DNA of 64,000 nucleotides from a virus: positions 62,001 through 126,000 of the IMG/VR virus record IMGVR_UViG_3300032799_000664, one strand, 5' to 3'. The stretch's first letter is position 1, and each line of letters begins with the position of its first letter. The notes under the pieces were generated by a model that saw only the letters and a program-made list of their open reading frames with translations, made no database searches and had not been told where the DNA came from. A program made the position numbers and the translations under genes. This document shows, piece after piece, positions 4,957-43,760 of the stretch.

Positions 4957-5967
4957 ATGTCTTTCACCGTCTCCCAACAGACCCGCCAAGCACGCACCAG
5001 CAGCGGTACGCTGCAGTACGAGATTCTGGCGGAAGTCACGGACGCCGGCGACTTGCCCGACAAGAATCTGTTCGTGATGATGATCGTAGATCGCGAAGAT
5101 CCCAAGACCGATACCTTCGCACGAATCGCTACGGTAGCTGATCTGGGACCGGTTCCCCCCACCAGTGATGGATTGTCCATTGACCGTCCCACTGCGCTGC
5201 TGCTCACCCCTGAACCCGACACGGCGTATTACCGCATCAACCTCGCCACGTTCATCTATACCGATCTGGCCACCGCAGTCGCGGCTCAAGACGTGCTCAA
5301 GACGCGTCTCGATGAGCTGGTGACCGACTGGCAGACGTACCTCGGCCAGTTCCTCGCCGACGGTTCGATCAAGCCGATCGACGTGACCGACCATCCCCGC
5401 TACACCCAAGATGCCTACACGGCGCTCGTGCAGTCGTACGTCACCGCTGTGAAGACGGAAGCCACGGCGAAGCTGACGGTCGACACTGCTAAGGAAGCCT
5501 ACGACGCAGCTGTAGCTGCGGCTGCGTTGGCGCAGACCGCCGTCACGCAAGCCCAGGGGATCTACAACGACTGTCTCGTAGCCAAGAATGTTGTCGATGC
5601 GTTCGCCGCGGGGATGTACAGCTTCATCAACGGTGCCGCGCAGACTTACCGGAACACGACACCCCTCAAGGGTGGATCACCGGATGCCGAGACCACCTAT
5701 GACACCGGCAAGAACACGGCACTGGCGCTGACGGACCCGCGTCCTGGTTGCGCCACGTTCTGCGGTGATCGGCAGACGGACCTCACCAACGCTCAGATCG
5801 CCACGGCTACCGCCAACACCAACGTCGCTTCGGCGCGTACAACCTACGAAGACGCCAAGGCGGCCCACGCGGCGGCGCAGGCGGCTACCGAAGCCAACCT
5901 GGCCGCCGTGCGCAGCCTCAAGCCCTCGTTCGACCCACTCACCGACATCCCCGCCGGCGTCTCCTAG
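4957..5967 (+). CDS. Unknown protein with Ala-rich coiled coil, third tandem relative (336 aa)
   Basis: ATG 4957 follows AAAGGGAG. Residues 1-60 match the pattern of the two preceding genes (LPDKNLFVMMIVD, then FARIATVADLG). Residues about 160-210 and 260-320 are Ala/Thr/Gln-rich and helical, likely coiled coil. The stop codon TAG is part of the four bases CTAG shared with the stop of the convergent minus-strand gene. A fibrous virion-associated role is conceivable from the composition only. Confidence 0.75.
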   Translation: MSFTVSQQTRQARTSSGTLQYEILAEVTDAGDLPDKNLFVMMIVDREDPKTDTFARIATVADLGPVPPTSDGLSIDRPTALLLTPEPDTAYYRINLATFIYTDLATAVAAQDVLKTRLDELVTDWQTYLGQFLADGSIKPIDVTDHPRYTQDAYTALVQSYVTAVKTEATAKLTVDTAKEAYDAAVAAAALAQTAVTQAQGIYNDCLVAKNVVDAFAAGMYSFINGAAQTYRNTTPLKGGSPDAETTYDTGKNTALALTDPRPGCATFCGDRQTDLTNAQIATATANTNVASARTTYEDAKAAHAAAQAATEANLAAVRSLKPSFDPLTDIPAGVS

Positions 5968-7520
5968 CGCACACACCCCTGAAACGGTAACCCCTGCGGT
6001 GCGTCCTCTGCAGCACCGATATCGAAGTACGGCAGCCGCTCGTGGTGATCAAGGATCTTCTGGAAGGTACTGAAGTCGTGGTCCCGTTCGAACTTCGCCA
6101 ACCAGAGGCGTACCGTCACGTGTCCCAGGTGTAGCTGCACCGTTCCGACTCGAGGCTGTGCCCAGCTGAAACCACCGCGGTTCTTCGATTCGAAGTAGAA
6201 CGAGTAGCTCTTGCCGTGGGAAGTCACTGAGAGGTGCAACCACAACGCCAATCGGCGGCGATCTTCCACTGTCGCCATCGGCGGTATGGCTTCGAGCTTC
6301 TGGCGAATGACGTCTGGGAGGAACTTCTTCAGCTGGTTGAGCGACAAGAATTGCAGAGCAGGCAGCTCTCGGCGTGCGTCACGCGCGGTGCGCGAGACGA
6401 AGACGACCGGGTGTTCTTCGCGTGGTCCAGTACCCCCGCTGTAGGCGCCACCAACGCGCTGCACTACGAACTCAGCTACTCGCCCGGTGCGATCATCCTT
6501 GTGCGCGAAGGGGATGCCACAGATGTGCGCCACAGCCCAGATCTGGTTCAGCGTCAGTGACGTTTGGCTCTCATGCAAATGGCGTCGCGCACACTCGAGG
6601 GTGTAATTGACCAGTCCGGTCTCCGTCCAGGTACCGTGATTGCACTGTTGCGCACGGTACTTGTCGCACGGTCCCCACTTGCTCCCGAAGTAGCACGGTT
6701 TGCACTGTGACCGAATGAAGTTGCGGGTCTTGGCCGACGCACGACTGCGTTCGCTGAGTTTCGCCCGAGCATCTTCAAGATCGTTGAAGTAGTGACTGCT
6801 CGGATCACTGAAAGCGTACCGCCGTCGACCATTTCCCGGGTAGAGGGGGTTTTCGTTCGTCAGGCCTTCGGGAATATAGAGGAAGCCACCGACGGTTGAT
6901 TTCCAAGATTTCAGACCGTCGACGTCGGGATCGGTATGCGTCGCGAGTTGCTGGCGATACGTCGATTGCGAATCTCGCAACGCACCGGTCCAGACCGTGT
7001 TGTCACTACGCAAGACCGGTAGCAGTTCATTCGGCAAAGACGCACGTCGGATCACCTGCACTTGCTCCGGCAGGTTCGTCCACAGACATTCGGCGCCTTG
7101 TGACGGACACCCCTTACAGCCCAGTGCTTTGTTGAGCATCCAACAGGTATCCTGCAAGGTACCGATCGGGGCACTCACGACAGCGTCGCCAATGCGGAAG
7201 TACACAAAGTCACCCTTCCCTGCGGGCGACTCTGCCCGGACGTGGTGAGCCGCATCCGTTGTGAAGAGCACGGCGTACTGTGTCGGTGCCTTTACCGGCC
7301 CTGACGCGTCGGCATAGCGTGGTTGGCTGTGTCGCAGACGCACTGCCAAGAATGCTGGCCCTATCCGCTGTTGCAGCTCGTCGGACAGCATCAGGGTCAC
7401 GATGTCTTCCCCAGTGAGACCCTTGACGCGATCCACGAAGAGCAGCCCGTGCTGACACACCGTGAAGACGCGGGGGTAGTGAATCAGTTCCGCCCTCTCC
7501 TCAGAAGGCAGCGCCATCAT
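5964..7520 (-). CDS. Unknown Cys-rich protein downstream of reverse transcriptase (518 aa)
   Basis: Starts at ATG 7520 (AGAGGA before it), inside the end of the reverse transcriptase gene, so translation is coupled. Several Cys groups suggest metal sites: CKGCPSQGAEC near residue 140, and CKPCYFGSKWGPC plus a nearby QQC about 110 residues later. No catalytic motif is recognised. It is the last of four overlapping genes (10578 to 5964) and should belong to the same process as the reverse transcriptase and vWA protein. Its stop overlaps that of the convergent gene at CTAG (5964-5967). Confidence 0.75.
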   Translation of the reverse strand: MMALPSEERAELIHYPRVFTVCQHGLLFVDRVKGLTGEDIVTLMLSDELQQRIGPAFLAVRLRHSQPRYADASGPVKAPTQYAVLFTTDAAHHVRAESPAGKGDFVYFRIGDAVVSAPIGTLQDTCWMLNKALGCKGCPSQGAECLWTNLPEQVQVIRRASLPNELLPVLRSDNTVWTGALRDSQSTYRQQLATHTDPDVDGLKSWKSTVGGFLYIPEGLTNENPLYPGNGRRRYAFSDPSSHYFNDLEDARAKLSERSRASAKTRNFIRSQCKPCYFGSKWGPCDKYRAQQCNHGTWTETGLVNYTLECARRHLHESQTSLTLNQIWAVAHICGIPFAHKDDRTGRVAEFVVQRVGGAYSGGTGPREEHPVVFVSRTARDARRELPALQFLSLNQLKKFLPDVIRQKLEAIPPMATVEDRRRLALWLHLSVTSHGKSYSFYFESKNRGGFSWAQPRVGTVQLHLGHVTVRLWLAKFERDHDFSTFQKILDHHERLPYFDIGAAEDAPQGLPFQGCVR

Positions 7521-8634
7521 CGATGTCCTCTCGAGCACCCTCCTCGATGCTCGCAGTCGCGGCTGCTGCTACCGCTGCCGCGTGCTGCGCCATCGCCTGC
7601 TCCAGCTCGGTCTTGAGATGCACCGCCCGCGCCGGGTTCACCTGCATGAAGTAGGCGACCTTGCCGCGCAGGTGGTCGGCGAAAGCCTCGACGGGATCGA
7701 AGCCGTAGCGCACGGCGTTCTCTTCGAAGCCACGCAGCAGGCAGTTGTGGATGATGGCGCGGTAGCGCCGGTAGACGTCCGCCGGGATGTTGGGGTGTTC
7801 GTTCACGACCATGCCGAGCATCTGCTGACGACGCCAGCACCGCTGGATCTTCAGCTTCTTCGGGTTGGTGCGGTAGCCGGCCTGGAGGATCAACCGCCGC
7901 AGGGTTTCGATGACGTCATCGACTTCTTTCCGCGTCTTCGGCTCGGGGTGAGAGATCGACAGATCGTCGCTATACCGGGTGTAGACCCACCCCGTGCCGT
8001 CCAGGGCCGCCAATACGGGTCGGTCAAGACGCTCCTGAGCTACCAAATTGCAGAGCATCGGCGACGCCGGCGATCCCTGCGGCACGAAGTGGCGGTACTT
8101 CACCTCTTCGGCCTCGTGCCGAGGCGGCTTTCCCCGGAACGGTGCGCGGCGCTCCTGGACCGTGCACAGGTCGGCCAGCAGCCCGCTGACGAAGTGCGAG
8201 TAGCCGATAGTCTGCTTGAAGAAGTGGCGGATCTGCGCCCGGGTGTGGCTGGGAAAGAAGTCCTTCAGGTCCATGGCGATGCGGACCTGGTGCCCGGCAT
8301 GCCGCGCCGCGCTGTCGCGGCATGAGCGGCCTTCGACGTAGGCCCCGACGCAGTCGAGCACGGGCAGGGTGCGCAAGATGCGCAGGTCGACGCGCCGCTG
8401 TAGGTGCTTCAGGCGGTCCTTCGGGTTGTAGATGACGCGGACGCGCCCGTCGGACTTGGGGATGGTGAACCGCTTGTAGAGGTGCGCCTTCTGATCGACG
8501 CAGTACCACAGCGTCTTGCAGCGCACCCCGAGGTAGAGGGCGAGGGCGTAGTCATCGATGACGTAGGGAACTTCAGGGCGTAGAGCTGGAGGTAGCTCCA
8601 GCGTCGTGAGGGTGGTCCTCTTGTAGCTCGACAT
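7501..8634 (-). CDS. Retron-like reverse transcriptase (377 aa)
   Basis: RNA-directed DNA polymerase. The order of motifs matches retron and group II-type enzymes: YKRFTIPKSDGRVRVIY (fingers), GRSCRDSAARHAGH (resembles the retron NAxxH region), the catalytic Asp in MDLKDFFPS (D122), VPQGSPASPMLCN (QGxxxSP), the catalytic YSDD (221-224), and NPKKLKIQ followed by LGMVVNEHPNIPADVYRR, which matches the retron VTGLVVN...NIPxxYRR block. The QGxxxSP form argues against a diversity-generating retroelement enzyme. The start at ATG 8634 has GGAGACC before it; the longer frame to 9069 overlaps the preceding gene and is rejected. A retron would need an msr-msd RNA nearby, but the upstream DNA is coding. 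Its template and purpose are unknown. Confidence 0.85.
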   Translation of the reverse strand: MSSYKRTTLTTLELPPALRPEVPYVIDDYALALYLGVRCKTLWYCVDQKAHLYKRFTIPKSDGRVRVIYNPKDRLKHLQRRVDLRILRTLPVLDCVGAYVEGRSCRDSAARHAGHQVRIAMDLKDFFPSHTRAQIRHFFKQTIGYSHFVSGLLADLCTVQERRAPFRGKPPRHEAEEVKYRHFVPQGSPASPMLCNLVAQERLDRPVLAALDGTGWVYTRYSDDLSISHPEPKTRKEVDDVIETLRRLILQAGYRTNPKKLKIQRCWRRQQMLGMVVNEHPNIPADVYRRYRAIIHNCLLRGFEENAVRYGFDPVEAFADHLRGKVAYFMQVNPARAVHLKTELEQAMAQHAAAVAAAATASIEEGAREDIDDGAAF

Positions 8635-9250
8635 CCTTGGTCTCCGTGGGCGGTGCCGGTTGCCATAGCGCCAGCTCGTCGTAGCAGTGCTTGCCACCGA
8701 GGTGACAGAGATTCTGCAGGTGGAACATGTGCCGCGGGCACAGCAGACAGACCGGACGCACGGGTCCGCGGGGGGTATAGAGCACGGTCTGGTCGTCGAG
8801 GAAACCCTCGAACTGCAGCTTCGGTGCGCTGATCTCTTCTTGCGCGTTACCGACGTTCTGCGTCCGCAGGTCGGCGTGTTGCGGCGCCATGAGATAAGGC
8901 GCCAACCGTTGCCGTTCCTGGCCTTCCAGGCGCGGTTTGTGGAGCCCGCGTCGGGTGAGCGGCAGCACCGGGATGAGCATGAAGACCGCTGCCGTGCGCG
9001 GCACCAGGGCTTCGATGATCCGTCCTTGCACCGTTGGCTGCCGCGGATTCGCGTGGGGACGCAGCTCATGACACTGCACCGGCAGGTTCTTCACCTTCTC
9101 CCACAGGTCGTCGGTGACGATGACGCACAGCGACCAGGGAAAGACCTTCGGCATGATGGCGCGCTGGGCATCACTGAAGAAGTACACGATGTCGAAGGGG
9201 AACTTCTTGACCAGAGACTTGAGCACACGCAGCTTGAAGATCGTCTCCAT
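8573..9250 (-). CDS. Unknown protein with C-terminal Cys cluster (225 aa)
   Basis: ATG 9250 overlaps the stop of the vWA gene (ATGA) and has GGAGGACG before it. The N-terminal half reads like a globular alpha/beta domain (FPFDIVYFFSDAQRAIM, SLCVIVTDDLW). Near residue 175 there is CLLCPRHMFHLQNLC and then GGKHC, a likely zinc site. The 3' end overlaps the reverse transcriptase gene by 62 bases in another frame. The function is unknown; the coupling places it between the vWA protein and the reverse transcriptase. Confidence 0.75.
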   Translation of the reverse strand: METIFKLRVLKSLVKKFPFDIVYFFSDAQRAIMPKVFPWSLCVIVTDDLWEKVKNLPVQCHELRPHANPRQPTVQGRIIEALVPRTAAVFMLIPVLPLTRRGLHKPRLEGQERQRLAPYLMAPQHADLRTQNVGNAQEEISAPKLQFEGFLDDQTVLYTPRGPVRPVCLLCPRHMFHLQNLCHLGGKHCYDELALWQPAPPTETKDVELQEDHPHDAGATSSSTP

Positions 9251-10578
9251 CAGACGTCCTCCATGACGAGGTGAATGCCGTAGTCCGGACACGGCACGGC
9301 GTGGTTCGGGGTGTACAACCAGATCACCGGGATCGGGATCCGATTCTCCGGCTCCGGCGCCGGGGCGTAGCCATCAGTGCAGTAGACCAGAACGTCGCAG
9401 CCCTTGTCGCCCTGCAAGTGACGCTGCACGTGCTCAAAGACGGGATTGAAGTCGGTACCACCCTGGCCCTTGATGGTGAGATCGACGTCCGCCTCGGACT
9501 TCACGTCGTAGACGGTCTGCAGATCAGCGTCGCAATAGATGACGTTGAGCGCCACGTCGCTCTCCATCCGCACGATGTTGATGAGCTCGGCGATGCCCCG
9601 CTCCAGCTCGGCGGTGCCCATCGAACCCGAGGTGTCCAGCGCGAAGTAGATCGAGAAACGGCGGTCACGGGCGCGGCCGGGGAAGGGCAGCACGTGTGGG
9701 ATGCCGAACATGCGGCGGTTGGGACGCGCCATGCCGCGTGCCAGCTTGGTCTGCCGGGTGCGCATGACCAGCGTACGTAGCAGCGACGGCCAGGGGATGG
9801 TGGGCCGGGCCAAGTACTTCTTCAGCAGCTCGTCGATGCCCGCCGGAATCGTGCCCCGGTTCTTGGCGTCGCGGTTGTGCTCCTCGAGCGCCTTCTCGAC
9901 CACGTTCTTCGCTTCTTGCTGCATCCGGTCGGCGAGGCCCTGCAGCTCTTCCGAAGTGGCACCTTCGAGTTCGCTGGTCCAGCGGTCGTGAGACCCCCCG
10001 GCCGCGTCCTTGAACGCCTGCTCAAGACCTTCGACACCCATGCCTCCGGTGACGTGCACGACCCGCACCCGCTTGAGCAGGGCGATTTGGTAGACCTCGT
10101 AGGGTTGGTTGCGCGGCAGATTGAACTGGTCCGGGATGAGGAGCGGGCTGTCCTCGGGTTCTTTCGAGCCGGGCGTACCATAGAAGGGCTTCGCCATCGA
10201 CGACTTGTCGAAGTCCTTCTCGCTGCGGATGAGTTCGTTGTCGGCACAGTCCGCGCCGATGTTCATCACCGCACGGAAACGCCGCTTCTCCATTTCGCTG
10301 GTGACCGTGCTCAGCAGGTTGAGGTAACGGCTCAGGTGGTCACAGATGATGTGGATGAGTTCGTGCTGGCAGATGAGACGCAGCTTGGCCAGCGAGATCT
10401 TCTTGATGTAGTCGGGGTCGTAGTAGAGGCAGGGCCGCCCTTCACGACTGACGCCGACGCCCAGCGTACCCAACCCCGGCACGGCGATGCGATGCAACGC
10501 ACTCACGACGCGCGCACAGTAGTCGCGCACCTGGCTCGACAGGAGGTAGGTGAAAGCCTGTTCCAGTGTCGTATTCAT
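9250..10578 (-). CDS. vWA-like protein with N-terminal putative metallopeptidase domain (442 aa)
   Basis: The N-terminal half has the zinc-protease motif HELIHIICDH (H72, E73, H76, H81). The C-terminal third is a von Willebrand A fold with the MIDAS-type sequence ALDTSGSMG near 317-325 and a later VYCTDGY. This two-domain layout is that of bacterial vWA-like metallopeptidase proteins, which normally work with a MoxR-type AAA+ ATPase; one is encoded nearby (12432-13883). First gene of a four-gene overlapping operon. A role in remodelling or processing a protein complex is inferred from the family, not shown. Confidence 0.85.
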   Translation of the reverse strand: MNTTLEQAFTYLLSSQVRDYCARVVSALHRIAVPGLGTLGVGVSREGRPCLYYDPDYIKKISLAKLRLICQHELIHIICDHLSRYLNLLSTVTSEMEKRRFRAVMNIGADCADNELIRSEKDFDKSSMAKPFYGTPGSKEPEDSPLLIPDQFNLPRNQPYEVYQIALLKRVRVVHVTGGMGVEGLEQAFKDAAGGSHDRWTSELEGATSEELQGLADRMQQEAKNVVEKALEEHNRDAKNRGTIPAGIDELLKKYLARPTIPWPSLLRTLVMRTRQTKLARGMARPNRRMFGIPHVLPFPGRARDRRFSIYFALDTSGSMGTAELERGIAELINIVRMESDVALNVIYCDADLQTVYDVKSEADVDLTIKGQGGTDFNPVFEHVQRHLQGDKGCDVLVYCTDGYAPAPEPENRIPIPVIWLYTPNHAVPCPDYGIHLVMEDV

Positions 10579-10643
10579 CGGTTGCCTTGGTTCCCTCTTG
10601 CACCCATCGTGAATTTACCGGAGAATAGCCGCAGGAGATGGCC

Positions 10644-11660
10644 ATGGACATCCGCGACCAGTACCACGACCCGGCCTACGGTACGCTGTACCATCTACTG
10701 CAGGCCCGGCCCACGGCCGCCGCCTTCGTCAAGAGCGCGGAGCTGGATCCAGCCCGCGCCGCTGACCTGCCCGACACGGCCTTCGCCTGGCCGGCGCGCC
10801 GGCTGTTCCCCATCGACTCAGCGGAGAACACCGTCCTCTCGTCGCTGTACCGGGAGAAGACGGCGGCGGTGCCGGCAGAGGTCGACGCGGAGCTCGCGCG
10901 CGCCCAGGACATCTACAACGTGCGTGAGATCGTGGCCCAGGCCCGCCAGGAAGCCCAGGCTGCCGAGCAGGTGAAGACCGCGGCGGCCGAGACCGCGGCG
11001 GTCTACCTGCTGCCACAGCACCACCGGCTGCGCGTCAAGACCGCCGCGGACGTCAAGGTCGCCGAGAAGCTGCTGATCCAGCAGTACGACCGGCTATCCA
11101 TGGAGGACCGCGCCGAAGGCTTCACCAACCTGGTGAAGGTTGCGCGGGACCTGAACGTCGGGCTCGAACCGATGACGCATCGCATGGCCGGCATGACGGT
11201 CTGCACCACCAAGGTCGCGGCTGACCTCATCGAAGCGCGGCGCATGGCCACCAAGGAACCACTGTTCCAGCAGGCCTACGTCAAGCTGGCGAGCGCCTTC
11301 CGCGGCAAGGGCGAGTTCATCCAGGACCGTGACCAGCTGGTCGCGGCCGCCGACGCCCTCGCCCGTCTCGACAAGGAAGCCGGCCTCGATCGCCTCTACG
11401 ACCGGAAGCTCCCCGATGCGGTGCAGACGATCTTCAACACCACGAAGCTCGCCGAGCCGATGATCAATCTGGCGGGCCGTGAGGTCACGCTCAGCAAGCT
11501 GGCGGCCCTGCCATCGACGTTCTGGGAAGACGTGGTCGGCAAGGATCTGCTGCGGGACATCACCGACAGCAGTGGCAACATCGACCACACCAAGCTCGGC
11601 CAGGTGCTCCACACCCTGCCGCTGGACCTGAAGCTGATCCTCAAGCACCAGGTGCCGTGA
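10644..11660 (+). CDS. Unknown, probable virion-associated protein (338 aa)
   Basis: ATG 10644 has GCAGGAG at the right distance; the ATG at 10638 lies too close to it. The N-terminal third has an FAWPARRLFPID segment, and an Ala/Glu-rich helical region follows. It contains the recurring motif VKTAA twice (near residues 113 and 133), the same short motif that marks the virion genes after 44 kb. Divergent from the vWA operon with 65 bp between. No enzyme motif is seen. Confidence 0.72.
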   Translation: MDIRDQYHDPAYGTLYHLLQARPTAAAFVKSAELDPARAADLPDTAFAWPARRLFPIDSAENTVLSSLYREKTAAVPAEVDAELARAQDIYNVREIVAQARQEAQAAEQVKTAAAETAAVYLLPQHHRLRVKTAADVKVAEKLLIQQYDRLSMEDRAEGFTNLVKVARDLNVGLEPMTHRMAGMTVCTTKVAADLIEARRMATKEPLFQQAYVKLASAFRGKGEFIQDRDQLVAAADALARLDKEAGLDRLYDRKLPDAVQTIFNTTKLAEPMINLAGREVTLSKLAALPSTFWEDVVGKDLLRDITDSSGNIDHTKLGQVLHTLPLDLKLILKHQVP

Positions 11661-11661
11661 C

Positions 11662-12435
11662 GTGGCACTGAGCCTCGCGCAGGTTGAAGCTCAACTGCTG
11701 GCGGTGGCCCAGACGCCGCGCCGCGCCGCGAAAACTGCGGCAGCGAAACCCACCGCGGCCGCCGCCAGCGTACAACGCCGTGATGCCGCTCAGCTACTGA
11801 CCGATGCCGGCGCATCAGCCAGCGGTTGTCTCCAAGCATTCGAGCTACTCTGTGGTGAAGGCTTCCGCGTCTGGGAACCCGAGACGCTCTGGTTGACGTT
11901 GGACCGTCTCGGCGTCGATCTCCCGGTGGTCAACCGGGACAAGATCCTGGCGGGGATCACCCTCGGAATCGTGCCGGCCTTCTGGTGGGAAGTCCACGCC
12001 TTCGAGAACACCGTCCTAGCTTTCAACGGACTCGTCAGTCTGCCCGAAGCACTGCAAGAAGCTACGCCGGCGCAGATGGCTTGGGGCGTCTTCGAAGCCG
12101 AGATGATCTACCGCGACCTCGGCGACGAAGAACCCGAGTTCGATCGCGAGCCAGTCATCTACGCGGCCACGGTGCTGCACCGCGCCGGCTACGTGCGGGC
12201 GCCGGACCTGCTCCACTTCGCCCAGCGTGAGCTCGACCGGTTCAACAAGAATGGCAGTGGGCTCACGGTCACCGAAGTGGACACTGCCTGGAAAGCGCTG
12301 AAGAAGCACCCCCTCGAAGAATGCAGCTTAGGTGAGACGGCCCTCGACGTGCAGCTCGGCCGTTTGGCCAGCGTCGAGCTGCACGTCGAGGAGATGTTGA
12401 AGCGCTACCGCGACGACCTGGCGAAGCTCCGCTAG
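11662..12435 (+). CDS. Unknown protein (257 aa)
   Basis: Begins at GTG one base after the previous stop; RBS weak. Residues 15-40 are Ala/Lys-rich (AAKTAAAKPTAAA), then a mostly helical domain rich in Leu, Trp and Glu (FRVWEPETLWLTLDRLG). Probably co-transcribed with the preceding gene. The stop shares CTAG (12432-12435) with the convergent AAA+ gene. The motif KTAA places it with the virion-type proteins; function unknown. Confidence 0.72.
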   Translation: MALSLAQVEAQLLAVAQTPRRAAKTAAAKPTAAAASVQRRDAAQLLTDAGASASGCLQAFELLCGEGFRVWEPETLWLTLDRLGVDLPVVNRDKILAGITLGIVPAFWWEVHAFENTVLAFNGLVSLPEALQEATPAQMAWGVFEAEMIYRDLGDEEPEFDREPVIYAATVLHRAGYVRAPDLLHFAQRELDRFNKNGSGLTVTEVDTAWKALKKHPLEECSLGETALDVQLGRLASVELHVEEMLKRYRDDLAKLR

Positions 12436-13883
12436 GCCAACGGGTCCGGCCCGCCGCCTTCCTTCTGGGCCTGCTGGAGCGCGTCAGTGATACCGCGGAT
12501 GTGGCGCTGGTAGCTCTGCTGCTTCGCCAGCTCCTTGCTGAGTTCCGACAGGTAGGACGAGACGTCGCTGATGCCCTCCTGCGCCGCACGCAGCTTGCTG
12601 GCGATGAACGAGACCGCGAGGTCCGACGGCAGGTCACCGAGGAACAGCGCCAGCTTCGGGGCCACGTCCTTCGGCCCAGGCTTGGTGCCGAGCAGCATCG
12701 TGGCCACGTTGGAGCACAGCTCGCCGAGAACGTCGTGCCGCGCGTCCTCGACCAGCTTCAGCACCTTCTTGCGCACGGTGCTCTTCTCGCTGTACTTGCC
12801 GAGCACGTCGGCAGTGGCGATGACCACAGCGCGGTTCTTCATGTACTCGCAGAACTGCGAACCCGTGACCTCGCCGACGTGCCCGCAGATGCAGGCTTGC
12901 AGCGCGTCGCTGATGCCACTGCCACTGCCACTGCTACCACTGCCGCTGTTTTCGAGGATGCCGGACTCCTCCGCAGCGCTCAGCAGCTTGCTGACCTTCT
13001 CCCAGGTGGCGGGCGACGGGTAGACCTTCCCCGCCAGGCGCAGCTTCGGATCGTAGAGCGCGACGTTGTTGTCCTGGATGTAGTCGACAACGTGCGAGTG
13101 GAACTTGCCCCGGGCGTAGGACAGCCACCCCGCGACGTTGCAGGTGACCGCGACGAAGCACAGCCGGCGCTTGATGGCGGGGTCCTTCTCGGCCTCGTTG
13201 ACCGAGTAGGCGCCGTCGGAGGGGTTCATCGCCGCGATGATCTGCGTACCCGCCTTGATGACCTCCACACCGTGAACCTGCCCGTCCTCCATCAGCGTGA
13301 AGAACGTCTTCACCGTGCCCTTCTCGCCGCGGTTGTACTCGTCGAAGAAGAGTCCGCACTCCGGCGGCAGGTCGAACAACTCGCGGTTGATGAGGAACTC
13401 CATGGTGCCGTTGCGCCGCGTACGCTCGTCGAGGTGTGCGATCGTCCGCGCCGTCTCGAGCACCTGTGACTCGAGACTCCGAGCGATTTCCTTGAACTCG
13501 TCATGATCGCCCTGCGTACGCACGAACAACGCGAGCTGCTGCATCTGGGTCGCGCGCTGCAGCAGGTCGCTCTGCTTGGCTTGCGACGGATACGGCACGG
13601 CGATGTCCTCCGGCTGGAGATGCTGGAGGTAGAACGCCAGCAACGGCACCGAAGTCGTCCACTCCTTGTTCTTCCAGGTGAACGGCTTGCGCGGCCGGCG
13701 CCGTGCGAACACCTGCCGGACGATGTGGCTCTTGCCGATGCCACTCTCGCCCACCAGGCAGATGACGTTGCCAGTGTCGCGGTTGGCGTCGATGGCGGCC
13801 ATGGCCGCCTGCAGACCAAAGAGAGGGATGCCGAGCTTGCGGTAGAACGTCTCCTCGGCGTTTTCGTCGGACTTCTTGGCCAT
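12432..13883 (-). CDS. MoxR-type AAA+ ATPase (483 aa)
   Basis: Walker A GESGIGKS is at about 45-52 and Walker B LFFDEYNRG about 130 residues later, with the MoxR-like Asp-Glu-x-Asn-Arg pattern. IIAAMNPSDG then matches sensor 1. The family uses ATP to remodel complexes, usually with a vWA protein. ATG 13883 is preceded by GAGGAGAAG; a GTG six bases upstream is less likely. A low-complexity Ser/Gly linker (GSGSSGSGSG) near residue 320 separates the AAA+ core from a helical C-terminal domain. The likely partner is the vWA-metallopeptidase at 9250-10578. Confidence 0.85.
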   Translation of the reverse strand: MAKKSDENAEETFYRKLGIPLFGLQAAMAAIDANRDTGNVICLVGESGIGKSHIVRQVFARRRPRKPFTWKNKEWTTSVPLLAFYLQHLQPEDIAVPYPSQAKQSDLLQRATQMQQLALFVRTQGDHDEFKEIARSLESQVLETARTIAHLDERTRRNGTMEFLINRELFDLPPECGLFFDEYNRGEKGTVKTFFTLMEDGQVHGVEVIKAGTQIIAAMNPSDGAYSVNEAEKDPAIKRRLCFVAVTCNVAGWLSYARGKFHSHVVDYIQDNNVALYDPKLRLAGKVYPSPATWEKVSKLLSAAEESGILENSGSGSSGSGSGISDALQACICGHVGEVTGSQFCEYMKNRAVVIATADVLGKYSEKSTVRKKVLKLVEDARHDVLGELCSNVATMLLGTKPGPKDVAPKLALFLGDLPSDLAVSFIASKLRAAQEGISDVSSYLSELSKELAKQQSYQRHIRGITDALQQAQKEGGGPDPLA

Positions 13884-13885
13884 CG

Positions 13886-14359
13886 TCACTTCTCCTCGGG
13901 GGTGCGATCATCGAGGTAATCGCGCCCTGGGTAAAGCTTCACGTGGTCGGTGAGGTAGGCCACGGCGCCATCACCGTGTCCGAGAGCCATGAGGAACGCG
14001 GCCAGGTTAGCCGCGTCCGTGGGGTTGTGCATGTGCAGCTTCTCCATGAGGTAGCTTGGCGTGATGTAGCCGCTGAGATCGAACGCATAGAAGCCGCCCC
14101 AGCTGGTGCCTATCGTCCACAGCCCGACGAACGTGTAACCATCTGGACAGTCGGGGTGTCCGACCTCACAGGCCAGCGTCTCGTCGAAGAGGCACACCGT
14201 AAAGCGCGTACCGCGAGCACAGAATTCGACCAACACCGGATACGTACGCGCTTCGAGGAGCCGTGCAACTTCGGCAACGCCGGCGGGCTTGTCGAGATGA
14301 ACTTCGCCTGCCCATTGCGGCTTCTTTACGGAGTTGGTATCGTGGGTCTTGGAACCCAT
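13886..14359 (-). CDS. Unknown protein (157 aa)
   Basis: ATG 14359 has GGAGGAATATCC before it, and the stop lies two bases before the MoxR start, so the two form an operon. The sequence is alpha/beta (VLVEFCARGTRFTVCLFDE, FVGLWTIGTSWGGFYAFDLSG) with a helical C-terminus. No family is recognised. Its 5' end overlaps that of the terminase gene on the other strand. Confidence 0.72.
   Translation of the reverse strand: MGSKTHDTNSVKKPQWAGEVHLDKPAGVAEVARLLEARTYPVLVEFCARGTRFTVCLFDETLACEVGHPDCPDGYTFVGLWTIGTSWGGFYAFDLSGYITPSYLMEKLHMHNPTDAANLAAFLMALGHGDGAVAYLTDHVKLYPGRDYLDDRTPEEK
14315..14343 (+). promoter_or_regulatory. Possible promoter of terminase gene
   Basis: TTGCGG (14315-14320), 17-bp spacer, TATCGT (14338-14343), 14 bp before ATG 14358. 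It lies inside the divergent gene, so support is from the boxes only. Confidence 0.4.
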
Positions 14360-16994
14360 GGATATTCCTCCACAACTGCGCTCGGACTTGGCGCAGCACC
14401 TGCTGTACCTGGATGGACAACCGTTCTCGCTCGGGGACTACCCCTTCTACCACGCCATCTACGACGGTAACTACCAAGGCATGCTGCTGAAGTCGGGCCG
14501 GCAAGTCGCGAAGTCGACGACGCTGTGCAACTTCCTTATCAGCGAAGGCATCGGGACCAGCCACTTTCGCAGCTTGTACGTATCACCGTCGCAAGAGCAA
14601 ACCCGCAAGTTCTCCAACACCCGCGTCGGCAAGGTGTGTCTCTACTCTCCGCTGATCAAGCAGTACTGGGTCGACGCCTCCGAGCTGAGTCAGCGGACCA
14701 TGCTGCGCATGTTCCGCAACGGCTCCGAGATTTCGTTCACTTACGCACTCGATGATCCTGACCGCGCCCGTGGCAACACCGCAGACCGCTGTTGCTACGA
14801 CGGCGAAGCACAAGTGCTGACTAAGCGCGGCTGGGTGTCGGTGTGTGCTCTGGCGTCGGATGACCTGGTAGCAGATGTCACGGATGCTGGGCGCGTTGAT
14901 TGGAGCGCCCCCATGGACATCTTTACCAAGAAGTTCACGGGTCGCATGATCACCTTCCGCCATCGCGGATTCCAGTTGCGGGTGACCGATGACCACAAGA
15001 TGTGGGTCAATTTCCACGTGAAAGCGGACGCGGCGTATAAGCAGTCTGACGACTATGTGTTTGTGCCAGCGGGCACGCTTGCCACAACTGAGCGCATGGG
15101 CTTCAAGATGACCTGCGTCGCGGAGTGGTCGGCGTCGACGCCAGCATGGCGTCACTTTAATGGTACACCTACGCGGATGCGTGGGCAGCAGGAAGCGCTG
15201 CAATTGCCGTACACCGCATTTGCGCGGCTGGTTGGCTGGTATATCGCGGAGGGCCACATCTCGTGGCGGCGGTACCGTGCCAACGGGGCGCGCAAGTGTC
15301 CACGACCGGTCCTCACGCAAAACGTCAGCCGTGGTCTACAAGACATTACTGATACCATCGACGCCTGCGGGCTACAGTACAACGTCGGACGCGGACGCAA
15401 GGGAGCGGCGGAGGCACGCCGCGTCATCGTAGGCTCGGAGACTTTGGGGTGGTACTTCGCCGACCTGGGTAAGTCGTACGACAAGTACATCCCTCGAGAG
15501 TTCTTTGAGAGTCCTGCCCTGCTGGAGCAAATCCTGCAGGGCATCTATCTCGGCGACGCCAGTTATCACCGAGGCGAGGCGTGGCAGAACGGTACACTGC
15601 GAACGCGGTCGCGGCGCTTGGCGGAAGACGTACAGGAAGCATGGCTGCGTCTGGGCCGCCCAGCGGTGATTCACACGCGTCAAATGACCGGCGCACCGCT
15701 GTACGAGGTTCTCTCGTACAACCGGGACTACCTTATTTTCTGGCGTGCGGAGTTCAACACGAAACGGCGTGTCATCGTCGAGCAGGTCACCGACGAAGAT
15801 GTCTACTGTTTCACCGTTAAGCATCACCGCCCTATCGTAAAGGGCACCTTCCGTTCGTTGCCGGTGGTCTGTTCCAACTGCTACGACGAGGTGCAAGACA
15901 TCCTCTACGAACCGGTTATCCCGGTCATAAACGAATGTATGGGCAACTCGGAGTACGGCTACGAGACGTACGCCGGCACGCCCAAGACCATGGAGAACAC
16001 CATCGAGTACCTCTGGTCCATCTCGACTCAGAACGAGTGGATCATGAAGTGCGATGGGTGTGGTCGTTACAGCTTCATCGATAACGCGAAAGCGGTGGGC
16101 AAGGTTGGTCCCGTGTGCGTGAAGTGCGACCACGCCCTGAACCCGCGTAACGGACAGTGGTACTCCTTCAAGCCGGAAGCAACCCTGACCGGTTTCCACA
16201 TCCCCCAGCTCATCCTGCCGCGCAACGCTGAGCAGCCCAACCGCTGGCAGCGCATCCTGACCAAGCTCGCGCGCTACAGCGACACCAAGTTCAAGAACGA
16301 GGTCCTGGGCATCAGCGATGCTCTCGGCGCGCGCATCATCTCGAAGCAGGAGCTCGAGGCGCTGTGCGAGGACTACGACATTTACCGGCAACCCTCGCCG
16401 GGCATCAACATGGAGTACCGCCATGTCGTCGGCGGCGTGGACTGGTCGGGCGGTGGTACAGAAGGCGTGTCGCGTACCGTCGTCTGGATCTGGGCGGTCA
16501 CCAAGAACCACCAGTTGCGCACGCTCTACTACCGCGTCTATCCCATCACCAGTCCGGTGAGCATCGTCGACGACGTGGCGGAAGCTTTGCAAGCTCACCA
16601 CGTCGAGCTGGTGATCGGTGATCGTGGTGAAGGCCACCTGGCGAACGATCTCTTGGCGCAGCGTCTGGGGTCGAACCGCGTCTCTCAGGTGATGTACGGC
16701 GCCCAGGCCCGGACGATTTCCTGGAACGAGAAGGGGTTGTTCTACACCGCAGACCGCACCACGTTGATGGACAACTACTTCATGGTGCTGAAGCGCCAGG
16801 GCGTCATCTTTCCCCGGCTCAGCTGCATGCTTGAACCGATCACCGACATCCTCAACATCTACGAGGAGGTCACGGTCAACGGCAAGAAGGTCTGGCGGCA
16901 TGCGCCGACCCAGCCGGATGACTGCTTCCACGCACAGCTCTTCGGCTGGCTCGCCGCCAAGGTGCTGCTGATGGACCTGACCTTCACTGGTTGA
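14358..16994 (+). CDS. terL: Terminase large subunit containing an intein
   Basis: The packaging motor ATPase-nuclease. Walker A SGRQVAKSTT is near residue 41-50. The Walker B segment (CCYDEVQDI in the spliced product) is split by an intein. A zinc site follows (CDGCG ... CVKC). The C-terminal RNase H-type nuclease has GGVDWSGGG, VIGDRGEG and PDDCFHAQ with the expected Asp residues. The spliced product would be about 516 aa, normal for TerL. ATG 14358 is chosen; a TTG upstream (14334) is the only alternative. There is no strong RBS, and a nearby promoter suggests a short or absent leader. Confidence 0.9.
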   Translation: MDIPPQLRSDLAQHLLYLDGQPFSLGDYPFYHAIYDGNYQGMLLKSGRQVAKSTTLCNFLISEGIGTSHFRSLYVSPSQEQTRKFSNTRVGKVCLYSPLIKQYWVDASELSQRTMLRMFRNGSEISFTYALDDPDRARGNTADRCCYDGEAQVLTKRGWVSVCALASDDLVADVTDAGRVDWSAPMDIFTKKFTGRMITFRHRGFQLRVTDDHKMWVNFHVKADAAYKQSDDYVFVPAGTLATTERMGFKMTCVAEWSASTPAWRHFNGTPTRMRGQQEALQLPYTAFARLVGWYIAEGHISWRRYRANGARKCPRPVLTQNVSRGLQDITDTIDACGLQYNVGRGRKGAAEARRVIVGSETLGWYFADLGKSYDKYIPREFFESPALLEQILQGIYLGDASYHRGEAWQNGTLRTRSRRLAEDVQEAWLRLGRPAVIHTRQMTGAPLYEVLSYNRDYLIFWRAEFNTKRRVIVEQVTDEDVYCFTVKHHRPIVKGTFRSLPVVCSNCYDEVQDILYEPVIPVINECMGNSEYGYETYAGTPKTMENTIEYLWSISTQNEWIMKCDGCGRYSFIDNAKAVGKVGPVCVKCDHALNPRNGQWYSFKPEATLTGFHIPQLILPRNAEQPNRWQRILTKLARYSDTKFKNEVLGISDALGARIISKQELEALCEDYDIYRQPSPGINMEYRHVVGGVDWSGGGTEGVSRTVVWIWAVTKNHQLRTLYYRVYPITSPVSIVDDVAEALQAHHVELVIGDRGEGHLANDLLAQRLGSNRVSQVMYGAQARTISWNEKGLFYTADRTTLMDNYFMVLKRQGVIFPRLSCMLEPITDILNIYEEVTVNGKKVWRHAPTQPDDCFHAQLFGWLAAKVLLMDLTFTG
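14793..15878 (+). other. Intein with LAGLIDADG endonuclease in terL
   Basis: In-frame insertion of 362 codons. It begins with CYDGEAQVLTKRGWV (splicing block A, Cys1), has VTDDHKMWV (block B-like), and ends DVYCFTVKHHRPIVKG ... VVCSN followed by Cys of the C-extein. The last residue Asn is right; the residue before it is Ser rather than the usual His. Two LAGLIDADG-like helices are present (LVGWYIAEG and LQGIYLGDA). The site lies in the ATPase Walker B, a typical intein target. The region has more A/T-ending codons than its host gene, in keeping with later arrival. Confidence 0.9.
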
Positions 16995-39314: not shown

Positions 39315-42300
39315 ATGGCCTTGACCCCGGTTCTCATCGACGCCGCCACTCGTCGCACCCAGATCCACGAGAAAGCGACCGACGGGGTCCGCCGCGTGTT
39401 CCCGCTCGCCCTCCGTGATCATCGTGTCGAAGTCGAAGACCTCCACGTAGTCTCAAAGGAGTACTCCTCCCGCGAACAGAAAGACGCCCTGCTGCAGGGG
39501 CACACGCTGCAGGAGCCGCTCAAGGGAAGCCTCATCCTCAAAGACGCCGCCGGCAAGGTCGTCCAACGCAAAGACGACATCACGCTGGCGCAGTTGCCGT
39601 GGTTCACGCCGCGACACACGTTCATCGTAGACGGCAATGAATACTCGGTAGCAAACCAGCGTCGTGTCAGACCCGGCGTGTATACGCGGGTCAGGGGCAA
39701 CGAAGAGCTCGAAGCCGCGTTCAACCTAGGCCGCGGTGACAACTTCCGTCTCAGCATGGACCCCGCCAAGGGTCACCTTTACATGCAGTACGGGACGACC
39801 AACATTCCGCTCTACCCCATCCTGCGCAAGCTCGGCGTGCCGGAGACCGAGCTCAACCGCGCCTGGGGCAGCGGTGTTGTCGCCCAGAATCGCAGCATGT
39901 TCGCCGGTACCCCAGCGAAGGCCGACAAGGCCATGGACAAGCTCTACGAGCGGCTGGTGCCGGAGTACCGCCGCACGCACCATACGCAGGAAGCCAAGGC
40001 CGACGCCATCCACGAGAGCTACAACAACACAGTGCTGGACCCCGACGTCACATCCCGAACCCTGGGAGAAGCTTTCACACACGTGACGCCCACCGCGCTT
40101 GTTAAAGCTTCAAAGAAGCTGCTCGACGTACATCGTGAAGGCGTTGACACCGACGATCGTGACAGCCTCGCTTTCCAACAGCTGCTGAGCGCCGACGACT
40201 TCGTTCGCGAACGCATCCTGCTGGAAGGCCGCAACCTGGCCAAGAAGGCGCGCATGAAGGCGTCTTCGGGCAACCTCGACCTCGATCGCATCGTCCCACC
40301 GTCGCCATTCACCCGAACCCTCCGGAGCTTCATCACCAACAGCTCGCTGTCTTCGATCCCGACCCAAATCAACCCCGTCGAGATTCTCGACAGTGCTGCC
40401 AAGGTCACGACGTTAGGCGAAGGCGGCATTGAGTCCGAACGCGCCATCCCCAACGAGGCCCGCAGCCTCCACCACACGCACTTCGGCCTCATCGATCCGG
40501 CGCGTACTCCTGAGAGCTTCCACGCCGGCGTTGATCTACGTGCCGCCCTCTGGCTCAAGCGTGATGAGCAAGGCCGGATGCACACGTTGTTGCGCAACGC
40601 CAAGACCGGCAAACTCCAAGATGTCGCAGTCCAGGATGTTGAGAACGCCACCGTGGCGCTGCCGTGGCAACGTGCCCAGCAACGGGGTGTCTCTGCTCTG
40701 CGTGCCGGACAACCGGTCTCGGTCGGCCGCGGCGAAATCGACTACGAACTGCCGCACCCGTCCTTCATGTTCTCGCTGTCGAGCAATACCATACCGATGC
40801 CGGAGAGCGTCGAAGGCTTCCGCCTGCTGATGGGCGCCAAGCACGTCGGCCAAGCCCTCCCGCTAGTGCACCGGGAAGCCCCGCTGGTACAAGTAGCCTC
40901 GTTCAATCCACACCGCACCATGGAGCAGGAGATCGCTCGTTTCATCGTACCGCACGCCCCGGTCGCCGGCACCATCACCAAGGTCGACCAGGACTACATC
41001 TACCTGCGACCTGAAGCCAAGAAGAAGGCCGAAGCAGAGAGCGAATGGCCGCAACTGATGCCCGTCGAGCACGTCTATCTCGCTGAAGACGGTGAGAAAA
41101 CCGCCGCCACCCCGCTCATCAAGATCCCCTACGATGACCACTTCCCCCTGTCGTCCAAGACCTTCCTGCACAACAACGTCACCGTGAAGGCCGGCGACGA
41201 AGTCGATGCCGAACAGCTCCTCACCGATTCGAACGTCACCATGGACGGTCGGTTGGCGCTGGGCACGAACCTCCGGGTCGGCTATCTGCCCTATTACGGG
41301 GCCAACACCAACGACGCGGTGGTCATCTCACAGGCCGCCGCCGAGAAGTTGACCAGCGAGCACATGTACAAGGAAGTGCTCCAGCTCGACCTGGACACCG
41401 TGCTCGAGCGCGACAAGCATCGCGCCATGTTCGGCAGCCGTTGGACCGCCGCCCAGTACGCCCACCTCGATAACCGGGGCGTCGCGCGTTCCGGAGAGAC
41501 GCTACAGCCAGGCGATCCTCTCATCCTCGGGCTGCATAAGGCCCTACCCACCGCTGAACAGCGTATGCTTGGCAAACTTCACCGCACGTTGAACACGCCT
41601 TTCCGTGAGATTGCGTTGACGTGGGAGCACCGCTGTCCTGGCGAAATCGTCGACGTCGTCGCGACGCCATCGCGCATCCTACTCACTGTTCGCACCAGTG
41701 AACCAGCGGCGATTGGCGACAAGATCTCGAACCGCTACGGCGGCAAAGGGGTCGTTGCCCAGGTGCTGCCGATTGCCCAGATGCCGCATACGCCCGATGG
41801 GCGACCGCTGGAGCTGCTCATGCCACCCACGGGGGTGCACGGCCGCATCAACCCAGCCCAGATTCTGGAAACCGCGGTCGCGAAGGTCGCGGAGAAGACC
41901 GGCAAGCCCATCGTCATCGAGTCGTTCAGTGGCAAGAACAACGTGAAGTGGGCACGCGGGCTTCTCAAGGAGCACGGCCTCACCGACAAAGAGATCCTCG
42001 ACAACCCGATGACCGGGAAGACCATCAAGGGACCCGACGGCAAGGGCGTGATGGTCGGACCGCAGTACATCTACAAGCTCTTCAAGAGCACCGAGACGAA
42101 CTACAGCGCGCGCGGCGTCGAGGACTACGACGCGAATCTCCAGCCAGCAAAGGGAGGAGCGACAGGGGCGAAAGCCCTCGGGCGCATGGAGATCAACGCC
42201 CTGCTGGCGCACAACGCCCGCAACGTCTTGCGCGAATCCATGACCCTCAAGTCGTCACGCAACGACGAGTTCTGGCGCGCCTACCAGCTAGGCCTGCCGT

Positions 42301-43760
42301 TGCCACCAGCCCGCACCTCGTTCACCAGCGAGAAGTTCCTGGAAATGCTGCGCGGCGCCGGCATCAAGGTCGACAAGAGCAACGAGCAAATGACGCTCGG
42401 CCCGTTGACCGATGCCGACGTAAAGAAGCTCTCCGCCGGCGCCATCGCTCGGCCGCTCATGGTGAAAGAGAAGGACCTCTCCCCGGAGAAAGGCGGACTC
42501 TTCGATCCCGTAGTCACCGGCGGCACCAACGGCACGCGCTGGTCGCACGTCGACCTGCACGAACCGCTGGTGAACCCGACGTTCGAAGAACCAGTACGCC
42601 GTTTGCTGGGTCTCACCGTAGCGCAGTTCCGTGGTTTACTGGAACGTGAGGGTGGCGCCGGTATCCGTCGCCGCCTGGCAACCATCAACCTTGATCAGCG
42701 CGAACGCGAGCTCCGGAGTGAAGTTCGTGATGCCACCGGCGCCCGACTCGACGGATCCTTGAAGCAACTGAAGAACGTCCTGGCACTGCAACGCGAGAAA
42801 CTCTCCCCGGATCAGGCCTACATCATCTCGAAACTGGGTGTCGTACCCCCGGTGATACGTCCGATCTTGCCAGCCTCTCATGGCCGCAAGGACCTGTTGG
42901 TCTCTGACGCGAACTACTTGTACCGCGACGCGATGCTCGCCAACGAGAATCTCGCCGCCGCCAAGCACTCACTGCCACCCGAAGAAGTGGCCAAAGCGCG
43001 ACTCCACCTCTATGACGCCACGAAAGCAGTCTTCGGTCTCGGTGACCCGATGAGCCCACAGCTGCAGGGCCGCGGCGCCAAAGGCTTCATCACGACGATC
43101 GCCGGACAGGGTAGTCCCAAGGGTGGTTTCTTCCACGGCAAAGTCCTCTACCGCCCGCAGGACGTCAGTGGTCGCGGTACTGCGGTCCCCGACCTCAACC
43201 TCAACATGGACGAGGTCGGCATTCCCGAAGACATGATGTGGACGATGTACGGTCCGCACGTCATCCGGCGGCTGGTGCAGAACGGCTACCACGTCGTCGA
43301 TGCACAGAAGGCGCTCGAAGACCACATGCCGGTGGCCCGTGAAGCCCTGCTGCGTGAAGCACAAGAGCGCCCGCTCATCGTCAACCGCGCCCCCACGCTG
43401 CACCGCTACGGCATGATCGGTGCGTACCCGGTGCCGGTGCCGGGAAAGACGTTGCGGGTCAATCCGTTCATCGAGAAAGGCCTCAACCTCGACTACGACG
43501 GCGACACGCTGACTGTCCACGTCCCCGTCATGCCGGGCGCAGTCAAGGACGTGAAGTCGATGCTGCTGTCCAACCTGCTCTTCGGCGACAAGACCAAGAG
43601 CGACCTGTTGGTCTTCCCCCAACACGAAGCCATCGTCGGGGTGCACCTAGCCAGCAACGCCAAAGACGGCAAGAAGTACCGTTTCAAGACCAAGGCCGAG
43701 GCGCTCGCCGCGTATCGTCGCGGCGAAATCGCGCTCGACGCCGAGATAGAGATCGGTTGA
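39315..43760 (+). CDS. RNA polymerase beta subunit fused to N-terminal (catalytic) part of beta-prime
   Basis: 1481 aa. Residues 1 to about 1015 are beta: TNDAVVISQAAA, GDKISNRYGGKGVV (from 801, with the two conserved Lys), LELLMPPTGVHGRINPAQILE in parts, and the beta C-terminal block GRMEINALLAHNARNVLRE. From about 1030 beta-prime begins (LTDADVKKLSAGAIARP, then GGLFDPVVTGG), without the first zinc finger of cellular beta-prime. SKLGVVPPVIRPILP, then the active-site loop N1391-LDYDGD-1397 with three Mg-binding Asp, and it stops after the YRRGEIALDAEI segment. The rest of beta-prime is encoded at 48210-50024. No alpha or omega gene is visible. It contains EKTA (from E594), the motif shared with virion proteins. 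Confidence 0.92.
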   Translation: MALTPVLIDAATRRTQIHEKATDGVRRVFPLALRDHRVEVEDLHVVSKEYSSREQKDALLQGHTLQEPLKGSLILKDAAGKVVQRKDDITLAQLPWFTPRHTFIVDGNEYSVANQRRVRPGVYTRVRGNEELEAAFNLGRGDNFRLSMDPAKGHLYMQYGTTNIPLYPILRKLGVPETELNRAWGSGVVAQNRSMFAGTPAKADKAMDKLYERLVPEYRRTHHTQEAKADAIHESYNNTVLDPDVTSRTLGEAFTHVTPTALVKASKKLLDVHREGVDTDDRDSLAFQQLLSADDFVRERILLEGRNLAKKARMKASSGNLDLDRIVPPSPFTRTLRSFITNSSLSSIPTQINPVEILDSAAKVTTLGEGGIESERAIPNEARSLHHTHFGLIDPARTPESFHAGVDLRAALWLKRDEQGRMHTLLRNAKTGKLQDVAVQDVENATVALPWQRAQQRGVSALRAGQPVSVGRGEIDYELPHPSFMFSLSSNTIPMPESVEGFRLLMGAKHVGQALPLVHREAPLVQVASFNPHRTMEQEIARFIVPHAPVAGTITKVDQDYIYLRPEAKKKAEAESEWPQLMPVEHVYLAEDGEKTAATPLIKIPYDDHFPLSSKTFLHNNVTVKAGDEVDAEQLLTDSNVTMDGRLALGTNLRVGYLPYYGANTNDAVVISQAAAEKLTSEHMYKEVLQLDLDTVLERDKHRAMFGSRWTAAQYAHLDNRGVARSGETLQPGDPLILGLHKALPTAEQRMLGKLHRTLNTPFREIALTWEHRCPGEIVDVVATPSRILLTVRTSEPAAIGDKISNRYGGKGVVAQVLPIAQMPHTPDGRPLELLMPPTGVHGRINPAQILETAVAKVAEKTGKPIVIESFSGKNNVKWARGLLKEHGLTDKEILDNPMTGKTIKGPDGKGVMVGPQYIYKLFKSTETNYSARGVEDYDANLQPAKGGATGAKALGRMEINALLAHNARNVLRESMTLKSSRNDEFWRAYQLGLPLPPARTSFTSEKFLEMLRGAGIKVDKSNEQMTLGPLTDADVKKLSAGAIARPLMVKEKDLSPEKGGLFDPVVTGGTNGTRWSHVDLHEPLVNPTFEEPVRRLLGLTVAQFRGLLEREGGAGIRRRLATINLDQRERELRSEVRDATGARLDGSLKQLKNVLALQREKLSPDQAYIISKLGVVPPVIRPILPASHGRKDLLVSDANYLYRDAMLANENLAAAKHSLPPEEVAKARLHLYDATKAVFGLGDPMSPQLQGRGAKGFITTIAGQGSPKGGFFHGKVLYRPQDVSGRGTAVPDLNLNMDEVGIPEDMMWTMYGPHVIRRLVQNGYHVVDAQKALEDHMPVAREALLREAQERPLIVNRAPTLHRYGMIGAYPVPVPGKTLRVNPFIEKGLNLDYDGDTLTVHVPVMPGAVKDVKSMLLSNLLFGDKTKSDLLVFPQHEAIVGVHLASNAKDGKKYRFKTKAEALAAYRRGEIALDAEIEIG

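Follow-up and report, generated by a model that had tools for sequence, protein, structure and literature searches.

We have identified a gene cassette of large phages in which a retron-derived reverse transcriptase (RT) is encoded between the genes for two Cys-rich proteins, with a MoxR–vWA metallopeptidase pair as a frequent neighbor. It is hypothesized, at a probability of about 0.5, that this RT represents a retron RT lineage that exchanged its own RNA for Cys partners and became part of a near-core operon of large phages gated by the MoxR–vWA metallopeptidase, a type that we did not find described in the literature searched.

Gene content of the cassette

All positions given here are those of the window, the 64,000-nt stretch of DNA that was analyzed, which is part of a virus record of 130,445 bp. 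Four minus-strand genes form an overlapping series that runs from 10578 to 5964. It begins with a vWA-metallopeptidase gene (9250..10578), in which a HELIH domain is fused to a vWA domain with a DTSGS MIDAS motif, and continues with ORF225 (8573..9250), whose conserved product has a C-terminal CxxC..GxC..GxxxC zinc-type knuckle. Then follow the RT gene (7501..8634), which encodes an RVT_1 protein of 377 aa with a catalytic YSDD and with MLG where retrons have VTG, and ORF524 (5964..7538; 518 aa if the start is placed at 7520), which contains two Cys clusters. The gene for a MoxR-type AAA+ ATPase of 485 aa (12432..13889, minus strand; Walker A GESGIGKSHI, Walker B LFFDEYNR) lies 1.85 kb from the vWA gene. 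Two conserved plus-strand genes occupy the interval (10638-12435), namely F4 (340 aa; 10638..11660) and F2 (257 aa; 11662..12435). The original prediction described four genes overlapping stop to start, all of which were found at or very near these positions, and its figure of 1.9 kb for the distance to MoxR agrees with our measurement. ORF157 (13886..14359, minus strand) overlaps the MoxR start; only close relatives carry homologues of it (HMMER matches in few loci; family F21 in 6 loci), and it is outside the core cassette.

Substitutions were counted against L001, the closest relative (86-99% identical). Third codon positions take 82 of 112 changes in the vWA gene, 40 of 55 in ORF225, 53 of 72 in the RT gene and 148 of 214 in ORF524, and dN/dS is ~0.1 or below (about 0.08-0.10) for the cassette ORFs. 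The excess of third-position changes and the low dN/dS thus identify all of these ORFs as real genes under purifying selection. ORF524 is the fastest evolving of the three-gene block (dN 0.052 vs 0.022 for the RT), and ORF225, too, evolves faster than the RT. A near relative, L003, has a ~650 bp insertion between vWA and ORF225 (L003:11305-11958) that encodes an HNH-type protein, as judged by eye, and is probably a homing endonuclease.

MoxR matches Pfam AAA_5 (2.2e-8) and the PHROG 1297 ATPase family (7.9e-32), and its residues G47, K53, D183 and E184 are invariant. The vWA protein matches DUF2201_N (1.7e-14; the metallopeptidase part with HELIH), DUF2201 (1.9e-18; the vWA part) and PHROG 1314 (4.3e-51), with D315, S317 and S319 invariant. 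The two proteins therefore have the Walker motifs and MIDAS of a MoxR–vWA chaperone pair, and the HELIH of the vWA protein lies in an N-terminal HExxH metallopeptidase domain. MoxR–vWA pairs have been proposed as parts of conflict systems (PMC7159879). F2 and F4 gave no match to Pfam or PHROG families, and no Pfam match to a VMAP or beta-propeller component was obtained in the nine cassette-region proteins scanned. A bpMoxR model has a match in the MoxR of L087, not in that of the window.

The two proteins flanking the RT are probably zinc-binding, judging from their Cys patterns: four Cys are invariant among 47 homologues of ORF225 and seven among 41 homologues of ORF524. Neither has a match in Pfam, PHROG or PADLOC (the last at E 0.1), and their AlphaFold (AF2) models, with pLDDT of 78 for ORF225 and 77 for ORF524, gave no significant PDB fold match. 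The type-specific accessory proteins of retron type XIII (PADLOC) were not found beside the RT. CxxC..C..C-like modules also occur as a Cys/His-rich insert immediately ahead of motif A of the RT in L022 (10001-11242), L034 and L045, and as N-terminal RT extensions in L065, L067, L074 and L070. L070 has no ORF225 match by HMM, and its own RT has the Cys-rich extension. The likeness of the modules across ORFs, insert and extensions is one of sequence pattern only.

Other features of the phage were observed in the window. The large terminase gene (14334-16994) is interrupted by an extra protein block that is absent from the 524-aa terminase of L001, and the interruption reads as an intein. Pieces of a multisubunit RNA polymerase (39315-43757 and 48210-50021; PHROG beta subunit matches) suggest that the phage has its own RNA polymerase. 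A ligase gene (44636-46138) encodes an N-terminal LigD 3'-phosphoesterase domain, which is unusual in a phage.

Conservation and the three-gene unit

An RT-alignment scan of IMG/VR yielded 80 loci, and the order MoxR–F2–F4–vWA–ORF225–RT–ORF524 is kept in ~55 viral contigs (~47 distinct) among them, down to roughly 31% RT identity. Loss of conserved neighbors and disruption of the RT frame in relatives, either of which would count against the original prediction, were both looked for and neither was seen; a search of other phages for the same gene order, which had been suggested as a check, found it widely conserved among large phages. The cassette is flanked by genes for DNA polymerase I, the large terminase, a RuvC-like protein and ribonucleotide reductase, and the lineage that hosts it consists of large phages of 100-200 kb that are so far uncultured. 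ORF225 was unmatched by HMM in L044 and L070, and a short Cys-containing ORF lies at its position in L044 and L328. Several absences of ORF524 are due to contig ends, while those in L044 and L058 are real non-detections. A nucleotide search for cultured relatives returned nothing, and among 50,697 phage records none matched ORF524 or F4. The 20-25 kb that follow the terminase have no annotated MoxR, vWA or RT in the phages with the nearest terminases (Vibrio phage D181 and Salmonella phage Arash). A cellular origin of the cassette was considered and rejected: none of the best 80 cellular RT loci (at most ~36% identity) has the cassette, and four of them show a weak MoxR or vWA match nearby.

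A terminase scan served as a census independent of the RT, with sufficient flanking sequence at 37 loci. MoxR, F2, F4 and vWA are each present in 37/37, the RT and ORF524 in 32/37, and ORF225 in 31/37. ORF225, RT and ORF524 are jointly missing in five loci (L282, L285/L286, L292/L293), which make up one terminase clade (support 100/100). L282 is an empty site, in which only 50 bp separate vWA from the conserved gene that comes next, and L285 and L292 carry other genes there. A conserved protein of ~390 aa without Pfam match fills the site of the block in these two (L285:3970-5145; L292:4282-5430). Loss is the simpler reading of the absence of the block in this clade, but with no firm resolution at the base of the terminase tree, gain is possible too. 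In the sister clade of the cassette RTs, the RT is present and MoxR/vWA were not detected in the long records L071 (170 kb) and L075 (193 kb); the same holds for L072 (77 kb). L068, also of the sister clade, has both MoxR and vWA, ~13-17 kb from its RT.

Since the block is all-or-none, the MoxR–vWA core occurs without it and the sister clade mostly lacks MoxR–vWA, ORF225–RT–ORF524 is the tight unit. The link of MoxR–vWA to this block is real but looser, that of a frequent, separable neighbor, and because each is found alone, physical coupling is not required. The proposed coupling of the RT to MoxR–vWA is thus borne out as conserved adjacency, but the tightly linked unit is the three-gene block (vWA 37/37 vs RT 32/37). 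In an informal comparison, groups in the RT tree match those in the terminase tree, which points to mainly vertical inheritance of the block.

Retron ancestry and the search for a template RNA

The RT matches Pfam RVT_1 with an E value of 1.5e-18. Its best PADLOC match is RT_XIII (9.9e-76), with retron models scoring highest, and its best PDB matches are retron RTs. The cassette RTs are monophyletic, with SH-aLRT support of 96 in one tree and 99 in a rooted tree. In the latter, a quick tree, support is 99 for the cassette clade, 97 for its sister and 94 for a group of Cys-extended RTs, and all three fall inside the retron radiation, so that the RT is nested in retron RTs under a rooting that is tentative because the outgroups, DGR and group II, have very long branches and one is only partly aligned.

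Retron RTs have YADD, NAXXH and VTG motifs in common (PMC12405507). The active site of the window RT reads YSDD; YxDD is found across most of the cassette clade, and the RT polymerase motifs are kept in most members. NAXXH is degenerate, with SAARH in the window and the His alone invariant in the alignment. VTG is replaced by MLG, of which L-G is invariant in 21 aligned cassette RTs, whereas almost all matches to this region in retron-type comparison RTs are VTG or close variants. In one subclade (L035, L049, L054, L069, L306, L328, L331 and L335), YxDN replaces YxDD. These RTs are otherwise conserved and the pairs tested are under purifying selection; DNA synthesis may not be essential in this subclade, going by the motif.

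ORF225 and the RT gene are spaced by at most 4 nt in 52/54 loci, and the RT gene and ORF524 by at most 2 nt in 49/49. Gene overlaps on both sides of the RT therefore leave no room for a separate adjacent msr-msd ncRNA. The DNA upstream of the window RT evolves as protein code in comparison with L001, the a1/a2 motif of a second RT lineage (see below) was found in 0/48 cassette loci, and Rfam gave no match, whether for the window or for the eight retron-type loci that were also scanned. An upstream RNA at the sister-clade RTs of L071 and L075 was a further candidate, which was rejected because the aligned stretch looks protein-coding by eye. A DGR was rejected as well, with no TR/VR-like direct repeats of at least 45 bp in window 1-22000. 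The description of the RT as retron-like in the original prediction is upheld for descent from retron RTs, but VTG and the space for an msr-msd are both absent, and the enzyme is therefore retron-derived and not a demonstrated retron.

A second RT lineage of large phages, in which VTG is present, has MoxR–vWA immediately upstream of the RT at about a dozen loci; MoxR–vWA and a VTG-bearing RT adjoin in L175, L177, L178, L183-L186, L188-L191, L193, L197 and L198, several of which show retron-like inverted repeats ahead of the RT. Most members have a gap of at least 200 bp ahead of the RT. The repeat pair CAGTTNNA..TNNAACTG is found upstream of the RT in 4 of 18 second-lineage loci vs 0.007 expected, and it shows a compensated A/C change between L175 and L178 on one side and L184 and L185 on the other. 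This pair resembles retron a1/a2 arms. An isolated 8-bp inverted repeat ahead of a retron-type RT was not significant by itself, and the a1/a2 argument rests on the recurring, co-varying motif. Several second-lineage loci have repeats that are weak or of a different kind. The lineage is possibly an undescribed phage retron type partnered by MoxR–vWA. VTG is also present in a third group (L065, L067 and L074), which has vWA 5-9 kb upstream with conserved genes in between.

Proposed function and comparison with known systems

The RT would work in a nucleoprotein complex with two zinc-type Cys proteins. ORF225 and ORF524 would replace the structured RNA of a retron in template binding or priming, and with Cys proteins in the role of that RNA the template would therefore come from elsewhere. 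MoxR–vWA would remodel, activate or proteolytically release the RT complex, of which ORF524 would be the variable sensor or effector end. The complex would serve phage conflict, by excluding competing phages or interfering with host defenses. That a retron-derived, ncRNA-less RT acts with two zinc-type proteins in phage conflict is the likeliest of the readings considered, but a tentative one, which we place somewhat short of an even chance. Retrons are known defense systems (PMC12548924), and the conflict role is suggested by two things, descent from these antiphage systems and the rates of divergence. The long vertical retention of the block beside the terminase, unlike the turnover of typical defense islands, argues against this reading, as do the separability of MoxR–vWA and RT and the existence of the YxDN subclade.

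The RT and Cys proteins could instead serve core physiology in replication or repair (RNA-templated repair or end synthesis, for example), and MoxR–vWA would then be an assembly chaperone that just happens to lie alongside. Retention of the block in 32/37 census loci, its inheritance in parallel with the terminase, the adjacent genes for DNA polymerase, terminase and ribonucleotide reductase, and the LigD_N-ligase, ParB, primase and helicase encoded by the phage would all fit this alternative. It is nonetheless unlikely in our estimation, given a clade that does without all three genes, with nothing in their place in L282, the fast evolution of ORF524 and ORF225, and the fact that retron RTs are otherwise known from defense. 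The block and MoxR–vWA may also be functionally unrelated and share synteny by descent only, which is partly independent of the other explanations. Each occurs without the other, and many phages that lack an RT have genes of the MoxR–vWA type (vWA in 334 phage records vs a relative of the window RT in 33). What makes this doubtful is the separately branching RT lineage that likewise follows MoxR–vWA without a gene in between, at about a dozen loci, along with the third group and its vWA 5-9 kb upstream.

MoxR–vWA with an N-terminal metallopeptidase is known in jumbo phages and has been proposed to function in virion assembly (PMC7824862), and for a Staphylococcus jumbo phage with RT-encoding relatives, a virion association of a MoxR-like ATPase has been discussed (PMC10638138). 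Together with the position of the cassette next to the large terminase, this would favor a role in virion assembly or maturation, in which MoxR–vWA acts on virion proteins, by processing or assembling them, and the RT block has a share in this, for instance as an enzyme that is packaged. We consider such a role quite unlikely, since the polymerase motifs of the RT are kept in most members and all block-less terminase relatives keep MoxR–vWA, so that the block is dispensable for that function. A true retron, with an msr-msd RNA that overlaps coding sequence or sits elsewhere in the genome, would account for the nesting in retron RTs, the high PADLOC scores of retron models and the related phage lineage with retron-type repeats upstream of its RT. 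The lost VTG and degenerate NAXXH (motifs as in PMC12405507), the protein-coding upstream DNA, and the lack of the a1/a2 motif in 48 loci and of Rfam matches make it very unlikely.

If the reading of a Cys-partnered retron RT lineage gated by MoxR–vWA is true, it would show how a retron RT functions, or is put to a new use, with no template RNA of its own, and phages would have an RT system belonging to them. RTs would also be tied to a MoxR–vWA metallopeptidase module for which a role in phages has only been proposed. Given a cultured phage of this family, catalysis and dispensability could readily be tested, through the YxDN subclade and the clade that naturally lacks the block.

An RT coupled to MoxR–vWA in phages, which had been put forward as an unrecognized system, was not found in the open-access literature searched, and the cassette is an RT system whose composition matches no described system found there. 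Staphylococcus jumbo phages (PMC10638138) are, like the window phage, large, with an RT and MoxR and no recognized DGR, but tblastn did not bring up their RTs as relatives of the window RT. Phage-borne retrons (P2-like and Pf phages) are a further case of retron-type RTs in phages; those found belong to temperate or filamentous phages and have neighbors other than MoxR–vWA. In MoxR–vWA ternary conflict systems and DGR-linked variants (PMC7159879, PMC10907252), MoxR–vWA is near an RT, as in the window. The window differs from these in that no TR/VR repeats were seen in 22 kb and its RT is of the retron kind, not the DGR kind of the DGR-linked variants; it may also differ in the third component, as no VMAP or beta-propeller was seen among the nine proteins scanned. 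Compared with retrons (PADLOC type XIII and outgroup), the window RT is alike in fold, YxDD and finger/palm motifs, but has LG for VTG, a degenerate NAXXH and no msr-msd space, and its accessory proteins ORF225 and ORF524 are unrelated to any PADLOC model. The MoxR–vWA-metallopeptidase of jumbo phages (PMC7824862) has the same architecture and pairing as that of the window, where the pair is split by two opposite-strand genes and the RT block follows vWA.
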